A stretch of 64,000 nt of DNA. Source: an uncultured bacterium. GTDB lineage: Bacteria; Bacteroidota; Rhodothermia; Rhodothermales; UBA10348. The notes under the pieces were generated by a model, which was not told the origin of the DNA, did no database searches, and saw only the letters and a program-made list of their open reading frames with translations. Below, piece by piece: positions 28,109-37,576 of this stretch (position 1 is its first letter; each line of letters begins with the position of its first letter). The stretch spans positions 248,001 through 312,000 of the forward strand of contig CALSQR010000001.1 in the NCBI GenBank assembly GCA_943788505.1, read 5' to 3'. A program made the translations under genes and the position numbers.

Positions 28109-29275
28109 ATGAGACTACACATCGTTAGTAAAACTGAGGGAGCATCGATTCCCTTCCTTCGAGGTATTCTCACGCGCTCCTTACAGAAGGCCGGGTTGCC
28201 ATTTGAAGACGCGTATAAAATTGCATCCGATGCCCGTGATTTACTTGAAGATAGGGAGGAGATCCCAGGGGATGAGTTGCGAAGAGAGGTGGTTCGGCTT
28301 TTAGAAAACAATGGTCATAGCGAGCATGTTGAATCCTACCTGGGCCCGAGGGCTGAGGCTGAGGGAATTCGAGTACTGACATCAGACGGTTCCGATGCGC
28401 CATTTTCGAAAGGGCAGCTAGCTGACTCACTCGAAATATGTGCTCTACCACGTGAAACACTTTATGATTTAGCCATCCGTATAGAAACAGAGCTCGTTCA
28501 AACCGACTGCACGGAAGTAACCTCAAGCGAACTCACAGGTCTGGTTCTCGAAGCACTCGAGAGGGACATCAGTAAACCTGCCGCAGAGGATTTCCGACGT
28601 TGGGTCGATTTTTCTCATAGCGGTAGGCCTTTGGTCATTCTTATTGGAGGCACTACAGGTAGTGGGAAAAGCTCTGTAAGCTCTGAGCTAGCGCATAGAC
28701 TCGATATTGTCCGAACGCAGTCAACTGACATGCTTCGAGAGGTGATGCGCTTACTAGTACCAGAACGCCTTGTACCCACTATCCATACATCTTCGTTCGA
28801 GGCTTTTGAGAAGCTACCGGTTGTCAACACAACACCGTCCGAAAAGGACATGGTGCAGGGCTACCTAGCGCAGTCGTCTCAGGTCGCAGTTGGAATTGAA
28901 GGTGTGCTAAATAGGACGGCGAATGAGAGTGTCTCTCTGATCGTCGAGGGAGTCCACTTGCATCCGCGTTTGATGGCTGAGATTGCCGAGCGCTCCGACT
29001 GTATTGTTGTTCCGGTGCTTCTGTCTGTATTGAAGGCAAAGCGGCTTAAGAAGCGTCTAATAGGACGTGGGCATCTAATCCAGTCACGTCGATCTGAGCG
29101 TTACATCAAAAACTTCGACCGTATTTGGGATCTTCAGTCCTTTCTGTTGGACGAAGCGGATCAATTTGATATCCCTATCATCCCCAATAATAACGAAGAG
29201 GCAGCAGTACGGGCTGTTTTGCAGACGGTATCAGGTGTTTTGCGAAGAGAGTTTGACGTACCGACTCAGCCGTAA
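28109..29275 (+). CDS. 2-phosphoglycerate kinase-like P-loop protein with two N-terminal ATP-cone-like repeats
   Basis: A 388 aa protein. The C-terminal half holds a P-loop kinase with Walker A ILIGGTTGSGKSSVSSEL (about 177-194), followed by STDMLREVMRLLVPERLVPTIHTSS and IVEGVHLHP, which match the 2-phosphoglycerate kinase family of methanogens. The N-terminal half contains two related helical segments (about 12-70 and 95-155) that resemble the ATP-cone-like domain found in that family. In archaea the enzyme makes 2,3-diphosphoglycerate on the way to cyclic DPG. The bacterial role is unknown to me. It ends overlapping the convergent pstB gene by 10 bp, which places it beside the phosphate island. 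Confidence 0.75.
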   Translation: MRLHIVSKTEGASIPFLRGILTRSLQKAGLPFEDAYKIASDARDLLEDREEIPGDELRREVVRLLENNGHSEHVESYLGPRAEAEGIRVLTSDGSDAPFSKGQLADSLEICALPRETLYDLAIRIETELVQTDCTEVTSSELTGLVLEALERDISKPAAEDFRRWVDFSHSGRPLVILIGGTTGSGKSSVSSELAHRLDIVRTQSTDMLREVMRLLVPERLVPTIHTSSFEAFEKLPVVNTTPSEKDMVQGYLAQSSQVAVGIEGVLNRTANESVSLIVEGVHLHPRLMAEIAERSDCIVVPVLLSVLKAKRLKKRLIGRGHLIQSRRSERYIKNFDRIWDLQSFLLDEADQFDIPIIPNNNEEAAVRAVLQTVSGVLRREFDVPTQP

Positions 29276-30084
29276 CGTCCCTCAATGTAATCGGCTGTTT
29301 TCTGATGGGTAGGGGTCAAAAAAAGATCTTCCGTACGCCTGTGTTCCATCATTTCACCCATTAGCATGAACGCGCATTCGTCAGAGGCACGGCGCGCTTG
29401 TGCCATATTGTGTGTCACAATCAGAATGGTATAATCCCCACGCAAATTCCAGATAAGCTCTTCCACAGTCTCAGTAGCTTTGGGGTCGAGCGCCGAGCAA
29501 GGTTCGTCCATTAACAGCACTTCTGGCTTGACTGGAAGAAGTCGGGCGATGCAGAGCTTCTGCTGTTGTTCTAGCGACAACCCAGTTGCGAGACGGTCTA
29601 GTCGGTCCTTCACGTCGTCCCACAAGAGCACATCGCGAAGAGCCTTTTCTACAATAGTATCGGCCTCAGCTTTAGACGATTGCTTTCCATGATGAAGCTG
29701 ATACGCAAACAGGATGTTCTTGCGTACAGAGACGGGAAGGGGGTTGGGACGTTGAAACACCATGCCTACGCGACTTCTTACTTGAGTCAAGTCAACCTGT
29801 GGGGCATAAATATCGTGACCTAATACGTCCACCTTGCCTTCCGTACGGACATACCCGAATCGTTCATTGATTCTGTTAACGCATCGTAAAAGGGTCGATT
29901 TACCGCACCCAGATGGGCCTATCAGGGACGTGACGATCCCGCGTTTTACTGAAAAGTCGACATCGAAAAGCGCCTGGAACGTTCCGTACCAAAGATTTAG
30001 CTTCTCAGTCCGAACAGCAATGTCAGCTTTCAGGCTATGTCTCGCTTCATCCAACCCTACCACTGGAAATAATGATTCAGCCAA
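29266..30084 (-). CDS. pstB: Phosphate ABC transporter ATPase PstB, copy 1, with degenerate signature motif
   Basis: A 272 aa ABC ATPase of the PstB family. Walker A GPSGCGKST (56-64), the Q-loop VFQRPNPLP (Gln111), Walker B LLMDEP, the D-loop SALDP and the switch VTHNM (His225) are all intact. The signature that should read LSGGQ is LSLEQ (169-173). It is the last gene of the pst operon and overlaps the upstream pstB copy by 8 bp. The degenerate signature, paired with the losses in the other copy, suggests that the two form a heterodimer on PstC-PstA. It powers high-affinity phosphate import across the inner membrane. Confidence 0.92.
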   Translation of the reverse strand: MAESLFPVVGLDEARHSLKADIAVRTEKLNLWYGTFQALFDVDFSVKRGIVTSLIGPSGCGKSTLLRCVNRINERFGYVRTEGKVDVLGHDIYAPQVDLTQVRSRVGMVFQRPNPLPVSVRKNILFAYQLHHGKQSSKAEADTIVEKALRDVLLWDDVKDRLDRLATGLSLEQQQKLCIARLLPVKPEVLLMDEPCSALDPKATETVEELIWNLRGDYTILIVTHNMAQARRASDECAFMLMGEMMEHRRTEDLFLTPTHQKTADYIEGRYG

Positions 30085-30850
30085 AACGTCCCTCCAGGTA
30101 ATCTGTTGTGCGTTGGTCCTTAGTTCTGCCGTCGAATAGTTCGTTCGTTTGTCCGATTTCTACGAGCTCTCCATTCAAGAACAAAGCGGTACGATCAGCC
30201 AGACGCTCGGCTTGTTGGACTAGGTTTGTGACCAGAATGATCGAGAGCTCCTTCTTGAGATCCCTTAACACATCCTCGATCCGCATCGTTGTGACGGGAT
30301 CGACTGCGATGGAGAACTCATCCAGCATTAAAAGCTTCGGCTTCTGTGATAGCGCCCGGGCAATCGTCAGGCGTTGTTGCTGTCCACCTGATAGCAATGA
30401 GCCAAGAGAATTGAGACGATCTTTTACCTCATCCCATAATGCAGCTCTGGTTAGGCAGTTTTCCACAATATCGTCCAACTCACTCTTATTACGCACTCCG
30501 GAAATCCTAGGTGCGAAGGCAACGTTTTCGTAGACAGAGAGCGGAAGACCAACGGGCAAAGGAAAGACCACACCCATTTGTTTGCGCAACGAGTACAGAT
30601 TTCTCCACTTGGAGGTATCGTAGCCATAGAACTCAATCAGTCCTTCGGTGCGCATGCCATCTGTAAACTCATCCATCCGGTTGATGGCCTTCAGGAAAGA
30701 CGTCTTACCACTGTTTGCTGGCCCAATTATGCCAAATATTTCGTTGGGCCGAACATTCAGTGTAACATCTCTAAGGATCGTATTGGATCCATAAGAGATG
30801 TTCAAATCCCGAATGTTGAGTACAGGTATGTTCTGTGAGGTGTCTATCAT
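30077..30850 (-). CDS. pstB: Phosphate ABC transporter ATPase PstB, copy 2, lacking Q-loop Gln and switch His
   Basis: About 257 aa from the ATG at 30850, one base after the pstA stop; the frame stays open to 30904 inside pstA. Walker A is GPANSGKTS (43-51), the signature LSGGQQQ (153-159) is canonical, and Walker B LLMLDE keeps its Glu. The Q-loop reads VVFPLP (Pro97 in place of Gln), the D-loop is AVDP, and the switch region reads LVTNLVQQA (Asn209 in place of His). These changes predict weak ATP hydrolysis at its own nucleotide site, while its intact signature can complete the site of the other PstB copy. Confidence 0.9.
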   Translation of the reverse strand: MIDTSQNIPVLNIRDLNISYGSNTILRDVTLNVRPNEIFGIIGPANSGKTSFLKAINRMDEFTDGMRTEGLIEFYGYDTSKWRNLYSLRKQMGVVFPLPVGLPLSVYENVAFAPRISGVRNKSELDDIVENCLTRAALWDEVKDRLNSLGSLLSGGQQQRLTIARALSQKPKLLMLDEFSIAVDPVTTMRIEDVLRDLKKELSIILVTNLVQQAERLADRTALFLNGELVEIGQTNELFDGRTKDQRTTDYLEGRFG

Positions 30851-30851
30851 C

Positions 30852-31721
30852 CTACCATTTTTTCTTGTTTCGGAGATAAACACGGAAGCCAATGGATAGC
30901 GCATTCATTGTGAGCACAATCCCGATCAAGAGGAGAGCCACGCCGTATGGCAAATTCTCAGGCACATTTGGGACCTGCGTCGAAACAACGAACAGGTGCA
31001 AAGAAAGCGCCATCGTCTGGTCATATACCGACTCTGGCAGAAACGGGAGGAAGAAAGCTGCTCCCGTGAACATTATTGGTGCTGTTTCGCCTGCCGTCCG
31101 AGACACTTCAAGAATGATCCCAGTCAAAATGCCGGAAATGGCATTGGGTAGCACAATGCGACGGATAGTTTGCCAGCGCGTAGCCCCTAGGCTCCAGCAG
31201 GCTTCTCGGAATGCCTGGGGTACCGATTGTAATGATTCCCTAGTGGCTACGATCACTACTGGTAGAGCCATTATTGCCAGGGTCAAACTGGCTGCTAGGA
31301 TACTCGTCCCAAACTTAAAAAAGAGTACAAAGGCCCCAACACCGAAGAGAGCATGCACGATGGAAGGAACGCCCGCCAAGTTGATGATTGCTAGGTTGAT
31401 TGCGCGAGTCAACCAGTTGTCAGCCGCGTACTCACTTAGATAAATTGCGGCGGCAATGCCCAGAGGTACCGAAAAAACCAACGCGAGCGATACTAGGAAA
31501 ATGGTTCCTAGGAAGGCTGGGAAGATGCCACCTTCGGTCATGCCGTTACGAGGGAACTCGCTCAGGAATTCCCAAGAAATCGCTCCGCCGCCTCGTACAA
31601 CTAAAAGCGTGAGAATGACGAGAACCGGCAGAATTAGCAGGACAGTCATAACAAGGAACAGCAGCCGCCATCGACCCTGTACCTTGTAATTCTGTAGGTT
31701 CAGTTCAGTTGCTAAAAACAT
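30852..31721 (-). CDS. pstA: Phosphate ABC transporter permease PstA
   Basis: A 289 aa inner-membrane permease with six predicted helices. The family features include VFSVPLGIAAAIYLSEYA, the conserved AGVPSIVHALFGVGAF segment, and the EAA-type coupling loop REACWSLGATRWQTIRRIVLP that contacts the ATPase. It begins three bases after the pstC stop and is followed by pstB copy 2. With PstC it forms the phosphate channel. Confidence 0.94.
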   Translation of the reverse strand: MFLATELNLQNYKVQGRWRLLFLVMTVLLILPVLVILTLLVVRGGGAISWEFLSEFPRNGMTEGGIFPAFLGTIFLVSLALVFSVPLGIAAAIYLSEYAADNWLTRAINLAIINLAGVPSIVHALFGVGAFVLFFKFGTSILAASLTLAIMALPVVIVATRESLQSVPQAFREACWSLGATRWQTIRRIVLPNAISGILTGIILEVSRTAGETAPIMFTGAAFFLPFLPESVYDQTMALSLHLFVVSTQVPNVPENLPYGVALLLIGIVLTMNALSIGFRVYLRNKKKW

Positions 31722-31724
31722 GGA

Positions 31725-32666
31725 TTACTTCTTTCGGATGCCCTTTACGACAAGGTCTGCCGTGAGGTTGATCAGGAAGGTGATAATGAAAAGGAAGATG
31801 CCGAGTGTGAAAAGGGCTCCATAGTGGTCAGAACCTACTGCCGTTTCGCCCAATTCTGCGGCGATGGTAGCCGTCAACGCTCGAACTGAGTCAAATGGAC
31901 TACCAGGAATATTGATTGAATGACCGCTGGCCATCAAAACTGCCATCGTTTCACCAAATCCACGCCCGATGCCGAGCAGTACGGCGGATACAAGTCCGTT
32001 TTTTGCAGCAGGCAGCACAACTTGGCGGATCATTTGCCACTTCGTTGCCCCCATCGCTTCCGCTGCTTCTCGGTACTTGTCAGGTACAGCTTTGAGAGCA
32101 TCCTCTGCAATGGTGGTCATGATCGGAGCAGCCATCAAGCCCAAAATGATGCCGGCATTCAGGACATTCAGTCCGATCGGGATGTCGAACAGGTCAATGA
32201 TGATCCCGTTCATGATGGTCAAACCAATGAAACCCCATACAACGGATGGGATTGCGGCTAACAACTCAACAAGGATCTTAAGCGACTCTCTTGTCTTACC
32301 GGTAGCAAACTCGCCGATATAAATGGCTGCACCCAGAGAGAAGGGAATCGCTACTAGCATCGCCATACCTGTCACACTCGCAGTGCCCACGATTAGCGCC
32401 AGCGCCCCAAAAGTCTGGTTGTTCTCTGAAGTAGGTCGCCAATTAATAGATCCGAAAAACTCCGTAAAGGAGAACCCTTCGAAAAGAAAAGAGAAACCCT
32501 CTTTGCCGACGAAAACGAAGATTCCTACGATGAAGATTACGGCTGAGATACCGCCCACGAACATCAGGACCTGAACCGTTTTGTCGACGAACCAAGAAAC
32601 ATCTCTTCTGTCGAGGCGGCCCTCCTGGATGACTGTATCAGACATGCTGCTTGTAGTTTCAGTCAA
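31725..32666 (-). CDS. pstC: Phosphate ABC transporter permease PstC
   Basis: A 313 aa inner-membrane permease. It has an N-terminal helix (VLMFVGGISAVIFIVGIFVFV), the IPFSLGAAIYIGEFA and LAAIPSVVWGFIGL blocks, and the coupling loop REAAEAMGATKWQMIRQVVLPAA. These are diagnostic for PstC. Its start overlaps the end of the phoU fusion gene by eight bases. A second ATG (MSDTVIQEG) lies 21 bases in. Confidence 0.94.
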   Translation of the reverse strand: MTETTSSMSDTVIQEGRLDRRDVSWFVDKTVQVLMFVGGISAVIFIVGIFVFVGKEGFSFLFEGFSFTEFFGSINWRPTSENNQTFGALALIVGTASVTGMAMLVAIPFSLGAAIYIGEFATGKTRESLKILVELLAAIPSVVWGFIGLTIMNGIIIDLFDIPIGLNVLNAGIILGLMAAPIMTTIAEDALKAVPDKYREAAEAMGATKWQMIRQVVLPAAKNGLVSAVLLGIGRGFGETMAVLMASGHSINIPGSPFDSVRALTATIAAELGETAVGSDHYGALFTLGIFLFIITFLINLTADLVVKGIRKK

Positions 32667-33717
32667 CGGAAGGACCCCGAACGAGATGGACTAGATCGTC
32701 AACCTTGTCGGAAATGAAATGGAAAACCTGCTCTGCTCCGGCGTCTAAGGGGAGATCCCATCTGATTGGAACCACGCCATACGGCAGTTCTGAGCAATAA
32801 TCAGCAATGTCTGAATTCAACGTTATCAGAACATCATGATCGCGCCAGTGCTCTGAATCTGAGTAAATCCCGCTCGGGTCCTGTCCGCTGAGTTCCAATC
32901 CTCTTTCTTCGCACAGATTTTGGATGTCGCGAGAAATAGCTTCTGCGGGCGTTTTTCCCAAACTGGAAGAAGAAATTCGGTCGGCATGGAATTTCCTGCA
33001 CAAGGCCACTGCAATCTGAGTAGCTGCGTTATCCTCTGCATCGAGAAAAAGCAGCCTGTAACGACGACGCTGCTTCGTCTTGCCTGTACTGGAAAACACG
33101 ACCTCTTCGCACAGATTCTTCGCCTGATCGGCAACACGCTCAATCTGCCTGACAATTACTAGTCGAGCAAACTGCTCCGATCGGGTTAGAAGGTCCATGT
33201 CCTGGCCCAACAAGTCTGAAAGTGTGACCAGAAAGTCGCGGTCGACGCTGGAAGCCAGCTTTGACGTAGATGTCGCCAGTTCTGGATCCTGACTCGAATA
33301 CGCAGTAAGAGACCGATGAAGCATGGTCAAAGCATCGCCGGCCATCTTCTCGAGATCATTCTTGAAATCACCAGATGGTGTTGATTTCATTTGTACGGAC
33401 TCGCGAGAGATCGTCACGGCATAATCCCCAAGACGCTCAATCAGGATGATGATCCTGAGGGAGGAGGAAATGAATCGTAGGTGCCCAGCCGAAGGCAGGT
33501 GCTTCGCAATGAACCGATGACATTTCAAGTTGAGCGCGTCTACCTCCCTATTGACCGGGTGGTCACCCAAGATTACCTGGTAGGAGAGACGGCTGTCTCC
33601 TGTAACTAGCGCTTCAACAGCCTTGGAAAGGCCTTCATGGACGGCTATTCCGAGGCGATGAATGCTTGAGCGAATGTCGTCTAGATCGCGAGCAAGTCGC
33701 TGTTCCAGTTGTGACAT
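32659..33717 (-). CDS. phoU: PhoU fused to a catalytically dead ArsC/low-molecular-weight phosphatase-like domain
   Basis: A 352 aa protein. Residues 1 to about 210 hold two PhoU helical repeats, with the signature helices RIIILIERLGDYAVTI (88-103) and RQIERVADQAKNLCEE. PhoU represses phosphate uptake and links Pst to signalling. From residue 219 the sequence follows the ArsC/LMW-PTP fold (YRLLFLD, then LCEERGLELSGQDP, DVLITLNSDIADYC and RWDLPLDAG). In the CX5R phosphate loop the Cys is Asp226 and the Arg is Ala232, so phosphatase or reductase chemistry is not expected. The domain may bind phosphate or a partner as a sensor. No histidine kinase or PhoB gene is nearby. Confidence 0.85.
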   Translation of the reverse strand: MSQLEQRLARDLDDIRSSIHRLGIAVHEGLSKAVEALVTGDSRLSYQVILGDHPVNREVDALNLKCHRFIAKHLPSAGHLRFISSSLRIIILIERLGDYAVTISRESVQMKSTPSGDFKNDLEKMAGDALTMLHRSLTAYSSQDPELATSTSKLASSVDRDFLVTLSDLLGQDMDLLTRSEQFARLVIVRQIERVADQAKNLCEEVVFSSTGKTKQRRRYRLLFLDAEDNAATQIAVALCRKFHADRISSSSLGKTPAEAISRDIQNLCEERGLELSGQDPSGIYSDSEHWRDHDVLITLNSDIADYCSELPYGVVPIRWDLPLDAGAEQVFHFISDKVDDLVHLVRGPSVD

Positions 33718-33756: not shown

Positions 33757-34653
33757 TTACATGCTTGCTGGAGAGCAATCAACCGTGTCGGCGGGAGCAT
33801 ATCCCTTGGCCAGAATGATGCATTGGCCCTCAGAACTGAGAATCCATTGTAGATACTCTGCAACGGCTCCTTCGGGCTGCCCTGCGGTGTACATGAACAA
33901 AGGCCGTGCAATCGGATACGTCGCGTCAATAGCAGTTTCTACGGTCGGGAAAACACACTCCTCGGATCCATCTGCAATCACACAAGGCATATGGATTTCG
34001 TCCGTTGCGTAGGCCAGACCGCTATACCCGATAGCACATGCCGTATTCATTACGAGGTCGACTACGTCTTTGGAACCATGCATATCGCGGGATCCAAGCT
34101 TGAAGTCACCTTCGTCCAATACAGCCTCACGGAAGTAGGCATACGTGCCAGAATTGTTCTGCCGGCTGATTCGGATGATCTCGTCGGAAGAACAACCAGG
34201 AACAGTAACACCTAGCTGTGACCAACGCTCAAGGCTACCACCATCGACATAAATCTCGCGCAGTTGCTCAACACTCATTTCCTGAATCGGATTGTCTTCA
34301 TGCAGGAAGATCGCAAGTGCATCATACCCGACGATAAACTCAACAGGAGCTTGACCAGCCTCAGCCATGGTAGTTGCTTCAGACTCTTTGATTTGACGAG
34401 ATGCATTTGCAATATCAACCGTCCCGTTGATCAAGGAAGCGATACCGGTCCCAGAACCGCCACCCGTGACAGCTATAGCAATGGCTGGGTTGACAGTCTG
34501 ATAGGCCTCGGCCCAAGCCTGAGCTACGTTAACAAGTGTATCAGAACCCTTGTTCTGAAGGACAACGCGGGAGGAGCCACCCTCGGGGCGACCACAGCCT
34601 GCGATCATAATGACAGCAAGCAAGAGAGAATACATTTTCAGGTAGGAACGCAT
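33757..34653 (-). CDS. pstS: Phosphate-binding lipoprotein PstS
   Basis: About 298 aa from the ATG at 34653; the frame remains open to 34698. The lipoprotein signal is LLAVIMIAGC. Family features follow: VLQNKGSDTLVNVAQAW, the GGGSGTGIASLINGTVDIANASRQ phosphate-binding loop, and SRQNNSGTYAYFREAVL. It captures phosphate in the periplasm for PstC-PstA. Hairpins lie on both sides of the gene (33737-33755 and 34696-34722), which may set its expression apart from the porin and the downstream pst genes. Confidence 0.94.
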   Translation of the reverse strand: MRSYLKMYSLLLAVIMIAGCGRPEGGSSRVVLQNKGSDTLVNVAQAWAEAYQTVNPAIAIAVTGGGSGTGIASLINGTVDIANASRQIKESEATTMAEAGQAPVEFIVGYDALAIFLHEDNPIQEMSVEQLREIYVDGGSLERWSQLGVTVPGCSSDEIIRISRQNNSGTYAYFREAVLDEGDFKLGSRDMHGSKDVVDLVMNTACAIGYSGLAYATDEIHMPCVIADGSEECVFPTVETAIDATYPIARPLFMYTAGQPEGAVAEYLQWILSSEGQCIILAKGYAPADTVDCSPASM

Positions 34654-34695
34654 AGTACTTGTAGTGTGTGATTGTGCGTTGATAAAATGGATGAA

Positions 34696-34722
34696 CACCG
34701 TGCATATGAGATGTACACGGTG
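34696..34722 (-). terminator. Hairpin between porin gene and pstS (possible attenuator)
   Basis: CACCGTG (34696-34702) and CACGGTG (34716-34722) form a seven-base-pair stem with an additional CAT/ATG pairing in the loop. On the minus strand the following bases are TTCATCCATTTT, a loose T-rich stretch, so partial termination after the porin gene is possible. It could equally be a stability element. Confidence 0.5.
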
Positions 34723-34737
34723 CTTTTAGCCATCCAA

Positions 34738-35730
34738 TCAGAAGGAAACCCATGCTGTCAAACGACCCGTAATAGTCGGATCATCATCGAGGTCAGATTT
34801 CTGATAAATGAGGTTTGGAATAAACTCGACGCCGGATTCCAGACGGAATGCAAATCCGATTGTGGCCCAGTCTTCGGCAGACTCTGCTCCCCGGTTGTCG
34901 CGGTCTGAGTAGTCGTAACGGGCAATAATGCGGCGAGAATCAGATAAGTCGTACGAGCCATAAACTGAAATGCCGTTCCGTATGTCCTCATCAGTCATGC
35001 CATCAAAAGAAATGGGGTTATAAAACCCTTCGACTCCTATGCGAGCCTTTTCTAAGGTGTACCCGAGGAAGGCATTAATATTCAATGAGCTACCGCCGTC
35101 AAAAGCATAGTAGTCCGAAGCAACCGTCATTTGAATGGCAGCACTAGGGGCATAACCGACCAGTCCATAAACACGCTTGAACTTGTCTGTTTCGGCCTTG
35201 CCAGCTGAGTTGTTGGCAAACATGGCGCTGTACGTGAGACGACCATCAGGGCTGATGGGGCCATCCAATCCGATACCAATGTCTCGCGAGTTAGCGATCT
35301 TCGCCCGGTCTTGAATGGTTTTCTCTATGGCGCGGTATCCCCAGTGATCCTCAGATGCTCCCCATATTGGAGGTCTGCTTAAGCCTAAAGTGGCACTGTG
35401 TCCGGCTCCAATAACATTTTTCCACTTGACATAAAGGTCTTTGATATACGGCGCCGGCTTGCCGTGCACATTCTGAGAGTCGTCGCTACTTTCAAACCTA
35501 AGCCGTCCAGAAAAGCGATCCGATTTCTTAAAATCAGCAGTCAGCCGTGCTCTCCTAAAACCGAATCCATTTTGGCCTTCAAAATCACGCTCCGGAGAAT
35601 TCAAGACGTAACTATAGTCTGAAAACAAAACTCCTTTAAAGGAAATAGCATCCTGTGCTATAAGACCTTTTGGCATCGTCAGTACAATAAACAGGGCGAC
35701 TAAGGCCACTACAAGGGAAGATCGATTCAT
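34738..35730 (-). CDS. Phosphate-selective porin (OprO/OprP family) beta-barrel
   Basis: About 330 aa from the ATG at 35730 (MNRSSLVV); the frame stays open to 35808. A signal peptide ends near GLIAQ. The rest alternates polar and hydrophobic residues in beta-strand pattern, with motifs FGFRRARLTADFKKSDRFSGRL and GLSRPPIWG typical of the OprP family, and ends in Phe as expected for BAM-inserted outer-membrane proteins. It is first in the porin-pstS-phoU-pstCAB operon, which supports a role in letting phosphate cross the outer membrane. Confidence 0.85.
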   Translation of the reverse strand: MNRSSLVVALVALFIVLTMPKGLIAQDAISFKGVLFSDYSYVLNSPERDFEGQNGFGFRRARLTADFKKSDRFSGRLRFESSDDSQNVHGKPAPYIKDLYVKWKNVIGAGHSATLGLSRPPIWGASEDHWGYRAIEKTIQDRAKIANSRDIGIGLDGPISPDGRLTYSAMFANNSAGKAETDKFKRVYGLVGYAPSAAIQMTVASDYYAFDGGSSLNINAFLGYTLEKARIGVEGFYNPISFDGMTDEDIRNGISVYGSYDLSDSRRIIARYDYSDRDNRGAESAEDWATIGFAFRLESGVEFIPNLIYQKSDLDDDPTITGRLTAWVSF

Positions 35731-35880
35731 GGGGTACGTACCAAAAGGCTGGTATGCAGGATTGTTAAGGAGGGAGTCGTTGACTGCAATGCAAGTGTAT
35801 TGAGCCAATGTTACCTTACTGTAAACAGTTACGATGAAGTTTTCGAGAGCCTATATAATTCCCCTTAGAGTGCCAGAATA
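35731..35880. promoter_or_regulatory. Divergent control region of porin-pst operon and Na+/Pi transporter gene
   Basis: The 150 bp between the two divergent phosphate genes must hold both promoters. It contains a small inverted repeat ACTGT-AA-ACAGT (35818-35829) and a repeated GTTAC word (at 35810-35814 and 35828-35832). Neither matches the enterobacterial Pho box, so any PhoB-like site here is only a candidate. Confidence 0.4.
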
Positions 35881-36687
35881 GTGGAATACATATCATCATC
35901 CGTTGATCTAGACTGGTGGCAACTCATCGTTTCTGTGGGAGCGGGATTAGCAATATTCCTCTACGGACTCCTCTTATTGACAGATGGGTTGAAGCGTGCT
36001 GCTGGCTCAACCATGAAGCGAATATTGGGGCGAATGACATCAAACCGCTTCAAGGGCGCCTTGGCCGGAGCGTTTATAACCTCCGTGATTCAATCTTCTT
36101 CCGTCACGACAGTCTTGGTTGCTGGCTTTATCTCTGCAGGATTGATGGGGCTTACCGAAAGCGTCGGCGTCATCATGGGCGCAAATATTGGAACTACAAT
36201 CACGGCCCAAATTGTGGCATTCAAGGTAACTAAAGCAGCCCTAGTACTGATTGCGATAGGTGGTATCGGCTTTGTTTTTAGCTCAGTCCAAAAGAGAAAA
36301 AATATCTTTCTGATATCTCTGGCTTTAGGGTTCATTTTTTTTGGAATGACCCTTATGTCAGACGGTACGGCTCCACTGCGTACTTATGCTCCTTTCATTG
36401 ACTTCATGCAGTGGATCGAGTCACCCCTCCTAGGGATTCTGGCCGGTGCACTATTTACCGCCATCGTTCAAAGTTCTTCCGCCACGACAGCTATAGTAAT
36501 CGTCTTGGCGACTCAGGGACTAGTTACTTTGGAAGGTGGCATCGCCTTGGCGTTCGGTGCCAATGTGGGAACATGTGTCACCGCATTTCTTGCCAGTCTT
36601 GGTAAGCCGGTGGACGCCAAGAGGGCAGCACTAGTACATGTCATGTTTAATGTAGCTGGTGTTCTCATCTGGGTCGGGTTTTATTGA
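35881..36687 (+). CDS. Na+/phosphate cotransporter (NptA/PhoU-domain family), N-terminal part of a frameshifted gene
   Basis: This frame encodes the membrane part of a type II-like Na/Pi cotransporter. It has the two repeated signature motifs, VIQSSSVTT and IVQSSSATT, plus GANIGTTITAQ and GANVGTCVTAF. GTG (35881) is the start. The frame ends at a TGA (36685-36687) just after VAGVLIWVGF, in the middle of a helix. Removing one T from the TTTT run at 36679-36682 would continue it directly into the next frame (IDELVLMVHWL). The break is therefore a single-base frameshift, either a true mutation or an assembly error. Confidence 0.85.
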   Translation: MEYISSSVDLDWWQLIVSVGAGLAIFLYGLLLLTDGLKRAAGSTMKRILGRMTSNRFKGALAGAFITSVIQSSSVTTVLVAGFISAGLMGLTESVGVIMGANIGTTITAQIVAFKVTKAALVLIAIGGIGFVFSSVQKRKNIFLISLALGFIFFGMTLMSDGTAPLRTYAPFIDFMQWIESPLLGILAGALFTAIVQSSSATTAIVIVLATQGLVTLEGGIALAFGANVGTCVTAFLASLGKPVDAKRAALVHVMFNVAGVLIWVGFY

Positions 36688-37576
36688 CGAGCTCGTCTTG
36701 ATGGTACACTGGCTGACTGCCCAGGCAGGTTCTGAGGTCTCGGTCGATATTGCGAAGCGTGTTCCAAGGGAGATTGCCAATGCCCATACCATATTTAACG
36801 TGTTGAACACGGTAATCCTGATCGGCTTTGCTACACCTATGGCAAAACTGTCCAGGTGGGCAATAAAGGATCAACCCATCAAGCAGGGTAGTCTTCTAGA
36901 AGCGAAATATTTAGATGACTCACTTATTTCTACTCCGGCACTTGCGTTAGATCGAGCCCGTCTTGAGATCGGACGAATGGGTGAGAGGCTTATTGAAATG
37001 GTTGGAATAGCAGGTCATCTTATTTCAGAAGAAAGTGAGCAAGATTCCATTACGCTACGAACGTTGGACGATGAAGTCGATTCTCTGTATTTACAAATAA
37101 CATCCTACCTCGGCCGCGTTTCGAGTGGGCAAATGACTGGTGAGGAGGTAAAGACGTCTCAGCTCTTTCTTGCTGCTGCCTCTGCTTTAGAGAATCTTGG
37201 GGATCAAATCGACCTAAGATTCGGAGTCGACTTTGCTGAGAGAAGCCGTTTGATGCTGGATTTTAGCCCGCAGACCCGGAATTTACTCAAGGACTTAATC
37301 CTGTCAGTAATCCCCAATTTGGAGCTGACCTTAAAGGCTCTAGACGAGGGTGATGTCGAGTTAGCTCAAAGGATACGTCTATCCAAAGCTCAATTAAAAT
37401 CTTCCGTCGAGAAATTACGAGTCCACCTTATGTCCCGTCTGGCTGAGAGTTCTGGAGAACGCGCTCGTGTCTTTGGACTAGAAACCGAGGTTGTAGAAGC
37501 AGCAAAGCGACTCAACGACATATCTCGTAGAATAGCTAAGTTAGTTATTGCCCGGTACGAAGCGCCAAAAGGGTAA
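36659..37576 (+). CDS. Na+/phosphate cotransporter, C-terminal part with PhoU-like domain (same frameshifted gene)
   Basis: The frame is shifted by one base relative to the upstream half. The real product would join at about 36683 with IDELVLMVHWL. It contains the last membrane helices (AHTIFNVLNTVILIGFATPM) and a C-terminal helical PhoU-like domain (roughly the last 200 residues, TLRTLDDEVDSLYLQITSYL to the end), the standard layout of NptA-type transporters. The ATG at 36659 lies within the upstream half and is probably not a real start. A perfect palindromic terminator follows 16 bp after the stop. Confidence 0.85.
   Translation: MFSSGSGFIDELVLMVHWLTAQAGSEVSVDIAKRVPREIANAHTIFNVLNTVILIGFATPMAKLSRWAIKDQPIKQGSLLEAKYLDDSLISTPALALDRARLEIGRMGERLIEMVGIAGHLISEESEQDSITLRTLDDEVDSLYLQITSYLGRVSSGQMTGEEVKTSQLFLAAASALENLGDQIDLRFGVDFAERSRLMLDFSPQTRNLLKDLILSVIPNLELTLKALDEGDVELAQRIRLSKAQLKSSVEKLRVHLMSRLAESSGERARVFGLETEVVEAAKRLNDISRRIAKLVIARYEAPKG

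Follow-up and report, generated by a model that had tools for sequence, protein, structure and literature searches.

What does a phosphate-signalling protein PhoU do with an attached arsenate reductase domain that has lost its catalytic residues? The question is raised by a gene in the window, the 64,000-nucleotide stretch of DNA that was analysed here. The gene, phoU::arsC*, is located on the minus strand (33717..32659) and is an intact open reading frame coding for 352 amino acids. Residues 1-213 (33079..33717, minus strand) form the PhoU part. Residues 7-213 matched TIGR02135 with an E-value of 7.6e-37 and 127.0 bits, slightly below the equivalog cut-off of 130.25, and PF01895 was matched above its cut-off (E 3.7e-24). 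The AlphaFold2 model of the full protein showed two domains (pLDDT 92.8, pTM 0.80), and Foldseek aligned the PhoU half over a full-length PhoU fold to the PhoU structure 4q25 with a TMt of 0.92. Both E/D-x-x-x-D motifs are found in the protein, at E94..D98 and E193..D197. In the alignment columns of the family E94, D98 and D197 are invariant, and position 193 is E in 34/79 and K in 43/79. The protein shares with known PhoU proteins (TIGR02135/PF01895, for example 4q25 of Pseudomonas aeruginosa) the fold, the motifs and the location in a pst operon, but it differs from them in its C-terminal pseudo-ArsC domain, in belonging to a clade of its own, and in the position of its gene, which does not close the operon but is placed between pstS and pstC or opens it.

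The original prediction had described the C-terminal part as a domain of the ArsC/LMW-PTP fold and had proposed a structure prediction and a fold search. Both were run and, together with profile searches, returned this fold. When residues 222-341 or so of the domain (ArsC*, residues 214-352; 32662..33078, minus strand) were searched as a single sequence, the matches were weak, with E 5e-4 for TIGR02691 (thioredoxin-type arsenate reductase) and E 2e-4 for 3rh0; in a single-sequence search of ArsC*, Pfam LMWPc gave E 0.097. A profile of 53 family members matched PDB 2l17, a glutaredoxin-type arsenate reductase, with E 8e-17, followed by 2ipa/1jl3 and 3t38, and PF01451 was matched by 35 of the 53 members at E<=0.01. 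Foldseek with the AlphaFold2 model found the ArsC structures 3rh0, 1jf8 and 1jl3 (TMt 0.75-0.80, E 1e-6 to 1e-5). A receiver domain, considered for the DEDN-like start, found no support, as the best 50 fold matches listed were of the PhoU, ArsC and LMW-PTP type.

The alignment confirmed that the catalytic cysteine is replaced by Asp226 (codon 33040..33042, minus strand) and the arginine of the CX5R loop by Ala232 (codon 33022..33024, minus strand), as had been predicted. Among 84 non-redundant pseudo-fusions the residue at the Cys position is Asp in 78, Gly in 2, Glu in 2, Ser in 1 and Asn in 1, so that it is acidic in 80/84 and never Cys, and the P-loop has lost its Arg in 77/84. In the comparison set of stand-alone or intact-fusion ArsC domains, both residues are present in 21/21. 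To the question raised beforehand, whether both residues are always lost in other genomes, the answer is yes for the Cys (84/84) and no for the Arg, which is kept in 7/84. These seven Cys-less proteins (L107, L108, L124, L127, L128, L076 and L089) are possible intermediates in the loss. At the family columns that correspond to the redox Cys of ArsC, the listed residues include no Cys, the position of the general-acid Asp of ArsC and LMW-PTP is not conserved in the family, and ArsC* has neither the CX5R(S/T) loop nor the DP acid of LMW-PTP. ArsC* therefore resembles the thioredoxin/glutaredoxin-type ArsC proteins (pI258, B. subtilis, 2l17) in its fold, its P-loop frame and the S-x-G motif, but is without their nucleophilic Cys, P-loop Arg, redox Cys and acid Asp. 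With LMW-PTP and Wzb it shares the fold family, but not the catalytic residues, and it is nearer to ArsC than to Wzb in sequence and fold. Judged by the residues lost, ArsC* is catalytically dead, both as arsenate reductase and as phosphatase.

Other features of the domain are kept or newly conserved. The P-loop Asn/Asp is N in 62/79 and D in 14/79, S-x-G follows strand 2, and P312, W320 and the linker residues G212/K215 are newly conserved in the fusion family. Asp226 is at the end of strand 1, where many members read DxDN, and may stand in for the Cys thiolate in the P-loop, holding the loop closed. Its near invariance and the DxDN sequence could also be taken as signs of a new activity centred on Asp226, such as a metal site or a phosphoacceptor. 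The second acid, however, is variable, with K, H or E frequent in Rhodothermales, and a further cluster of conserved acids was not identified in the family alignment of ArsC*, which makes a new activity highly improbable.

The age and spread of the fusion were followed in a genome collection, where 78 loci were found, 77 with a full-length fusion and one truncated at the end of a contig. More fusions came from searches of about 1,200 additional genomes, and after thinning 84 distinct Cys-less proteins were left; these genome draws are samples and not censuses, and many of the relatives are metagenome-assembled genomes. The carriers belong to Rhodothermales, Gammaproteobacteria, Acidobacteriota, Verrucomicrobiota and others. 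In a tree of the PhoU halves all 49 sampled pseudo-fusions formed a single clade with a support of 100/99 and with no intact member inside. By this sequence evidence, the Cys-less fusions are one ancient clade kept across phyla. A recent loss of the Cys in the window's genome is ruled out, since the Cys is absent in 84/84 relatives. Loss of the domain from Cys-less fusions was not seen, apart from the one protein cut by the contig end. In relatives with an estimable dS, simple pairwise NG86 estimates gave a dN/dS of 0.07-0.32 for ArsC*, somewhat higher than for the PhoU half in most pairs. As the catalytic residues are lost and dN/dS is at this level, ArsC* is dead yet kept under purifying selection. 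The mean pairwise identity is 39% for ArsC* and 50% for the PhoU half; ArsC* thus evolves faster, which suggests that any contact surface on it is not strongly fixed.

Four fusions with an intact CX5R loop (L143-L146) were found in other phyla searched. They resemble the pseudo-fusions in the PhoU-ArsC domain order and the pst operon, but differ from them in the intact loop, in a single canonical PstB (LSGGQ, VTH) and in a canonical PhoU half. They stand at the end of pstSCAB operons, and in three of the four loci (L143, L144 and L146) a gene of the ArsR::ArsC type is directly upstream of pstS, its domains being confirmed by family search for one of the three. The operons of L143-L146 look like arsenate-linked phosphate importers. 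In the tree of the PhoU halves the intact fusions fell among canonical PhoU in two places, which argues for independent fusions and leaves them unsupported as ancestors of the pseudo-fusions. A tree of the ArsC domains, calculated with the P-loop columns left out, was consistent and weakly resolved (SH-aLRT 80 at the key fork). Intact homologues had been named beforehand as the finding that would make the copy in the window a simple recent loss; they exist, but with their PhoU halves grouping with canonical PhoU this alternative fails. The intact fusions with upstream arsR::arsC in 3/4 indicate that such fusions arise in arsenate settings, and some Cys-less members keep the Arg, as would be expected if ArsC* were a remnant in decay, carried over from an old pst operon linked to arsenate. 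Against such a relic stand the dN/dS values, the Asp conserved in 78/84 and the retention of the full-length domain across phyla, and we consider it very unlikely.

The location of the fusion in a pst operon, as originally described, was borne out by matches for pstS, pstC, pstA and pstB, all in one operon on the minus strand. The gene for the phosphate-binding protein PstS (33757..34698) matched TIGR02136 with 221.5 bits, above the cut-off of 206.6. The permease gene pstC (31725..32666) matched TIGR02138 (272.5 bits) and pstA (30852..31721) matched TIGR00974 (268.6 bits), both above their cut-offs; the longest reading frame of pstC shares its first 8 bases with the end of phoU::arsC*. Upstream of pstS a porin O/P-like outer-membrane protein is encoded (34738..35808, minus strand), with a weak match to PF07396 (E 0.003) and conserved synteny in Rhodothermales relatives. 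In relatives with enough flank the gene order is pstS, phoU::arsC*, pstC, pstA, pstB1, pstB2. The Verrucomicrobiota-type operon has the same content with the fusion first. Further observations concern the surroundings of the operon. An ATP-cone protein similar to 2-phosphoglycerate kinase is encoded beside it at 28109-29275 (NF003259 E 4e-83, under the cut-off), and homologues are repeatedly found close to the pst operon in Rhodothermales, Gammaproteobacteria and Acidobacteriota. At 35881-37576, a Na/Pi cotransporter gene with a C-terminal PhoU domain has a frameshift near 36659-36687, which is either a sequencing error or real; both parts are in one frame in L002, L005 and L007, and L051 is also shifted.

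The operon contains two pstB genes, a feature absent from the original claims, and neither product has every canonical ABC motif. PstB1 (30077..30904, minus strand; TIGR00972 E 6e-83) has kept Walker A, LSGGQ and Walker B, with the H-loop His changed to Asn (VTN). PstB2 (29266..30084, minus strand; TIGR00972 E 7e-98) has kept Walker A, Walker B and the H-loop His, with LSGGQ changed to LSLEQ. The two proteins are degenerate in complementary ways, and such a pair is seen in the window at 29266-30904 and in L002-L079 and L179-L195, conserved across phyla. Among the relatives PstB1 has VTN in 56/57, the remaining one being a gap there, and LSGGQ in 57/57, and PstB2 has a degenerate signature in 56/56 (LSLEE in most relatives, otherwise LSLEQ, LQLEQ or LALEE) and the His (VTH) in 56/56. 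An ATP site of an ABC transporter is composed of the Walker motifs and the H-loop of one subunit and the signature of the other subunit. We infer that PstB1 and PstB2 form a heterodimer, in which by this rule one site would be consensus and the other degenerate, and only the site of PstB2-Walker and PstB1-LSGGQ should hydrolyse ATP efficiently. Two adjacent pstB genes are also known from Firmicutes such as Enterococcus faecalis (PMC12096839), but in the operon described here one PstB has lost the His and the other LSGGQ.

The pair and the fusion mostly occur together, but an obligatory link in both directions is ruled out because the pair also occurs without ArsC*. A search for close PstB1 homologues (E<1e-125) that covered 296 genomes from the phylum of the window and 369 from a gammaproteobacterial class found them in fusion-carrying genomes and in one fusion-less genome, G044, which has the PstB pair in an operon without phoU. 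The reverse exception is G321, where the fusion is present and a PstB1 fragment and PstB2 are encoded elsewhere, beside phoB-phoR on a gapped scaffold. More distant pairs of the PstB1/PstB2 type were found alongside a plain PhoU (L201; PstB pairs L186-L188), and in L199 the operon with the pair has no PhoU. The asymmetric ATPase is therefore a wider trait in which the pseudo-fusion is nested, and ArsC* is not required for that ATPase.

It had been suggested that the fusion takes the place of a separate sensing partner, no PhoR-like kinase being nearby. In many gammaproteobacterial relatives phoB and phoR directly follow pstB2. They do so on the same strand in 10 loci, and in 3 more loci they are next door on the opposite strand. 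On its other contig, the genome of the window encodes a PhoB-like/PhoR-like pair, below the equivalog cut-offs, with PhoB as the best model for one and PnpS followed by PhoR for the other. These findings speak against a replacement of PhoR by the fusion. In G321, PhoB and PhoR were found above the cut-offs, and the PhoU search of that genome gave the fusion, two PhoU parts in long frames of the Na/Pi-cotransporter type and one weak frame of 188 aa, and no ordinary PhoU. The linkage to phoB-phoR, together with a genome that has PhoR and no ordinary PhoU, makes it more likely that the fusion works with PhoR than in its place.

We therefore favour, with somewhat better than even confidence, that the protein serves as PhoU specifically for a distinct Pst importer with a PstB1/PstB2 pair and that ArsC* is a non-catalytic docking module, because the domain is dead, conserved and linked to the operon. 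The PhoU half would act as PhoU does elsewhere, reading the transporter through PstB and restraining PhoR and/or the import. The former active-site face of ArsC* would contact a partner, most likely, judging by co-occurrence, the PstB pair, or alternatively PhoR or PhoB. A working analogy is given by the D2 pseudophosphatase domains of receptor PTPs (RPTP-gamma, PMC2638020), where a dead phosphatase domain is a regulatory contact surface, although D2 is of another PTP class, is human and sits beside an active domain.

Of the two roles considered at the outset, docking is compatible with the data and a sensor for phosphate or arsenate is less supported. Binding of an anion or small molecule (phosphate, arsenate or a phosphometabolite) to the old P-loop, relayed to PhoU, would fit the preserved fold, P-loop Asn/Asp and S-x-G, the phosphate-import setting and the recurrent 2-phosphoglycerate-kinase-like neighbour. 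We regard it as unlikely, as the frequent loss of the Arg and the acidic residue at the Cys position are both unfavourable and should repel an oxyanion; the loss of the Arg in combination with the new Asp makes docking more likely than oxyanion sensing. It is also rather doubtful that the chief role of ArsC* is to determine the oligomeric state or stability of PhoU, with ArsC* itself having no partner. The high-confidence two-domain model and the conserved inter-domain linker G212..K215 would agree with this, but the near-invariant Asp226 and the restriction to operons with asymmetric PstB would be left unexplained.

Within the docking reading PhoU could use its extra domain to recognise one side of an asymmetric transporter. 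We put forward quite tentatively, as a proposal with a small chance of being right, that ArsC* reads this asymmetry in a separate Pst subtype, docking to one side of the PstB1/PstB2 heterodimer so that a single PhoU reports turnover to PhoR. Such a mechanism, if true, would be a kind of signalling of which importers with two identical PstB subunits offer no described example.

In the open-access literature no report of a PhoU-ArsC fusion was found, and a recent PhoU survey (mBio 2026, PMC13170248) was limited to PhoU proteins without extra domains. The operon looks like a distinct and so far undescribed form of the system for phosphate import and signalling, in which a pseudo-ArsC/LMW-PTP domain has been added to phosphate signalling and the PstB pair suggests that one site carries the ATP cycle of a phosphate importer. 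The way in which PhoU senses the transport state of Pst and relays it to PhoR is not yet well understood. The natural version seen here, with an asymmetric ATPase and a dead-enzyme arm on PhoU, provides a handle for contact mapping, in which each PstB subunit and the ArsC* arm are separable.
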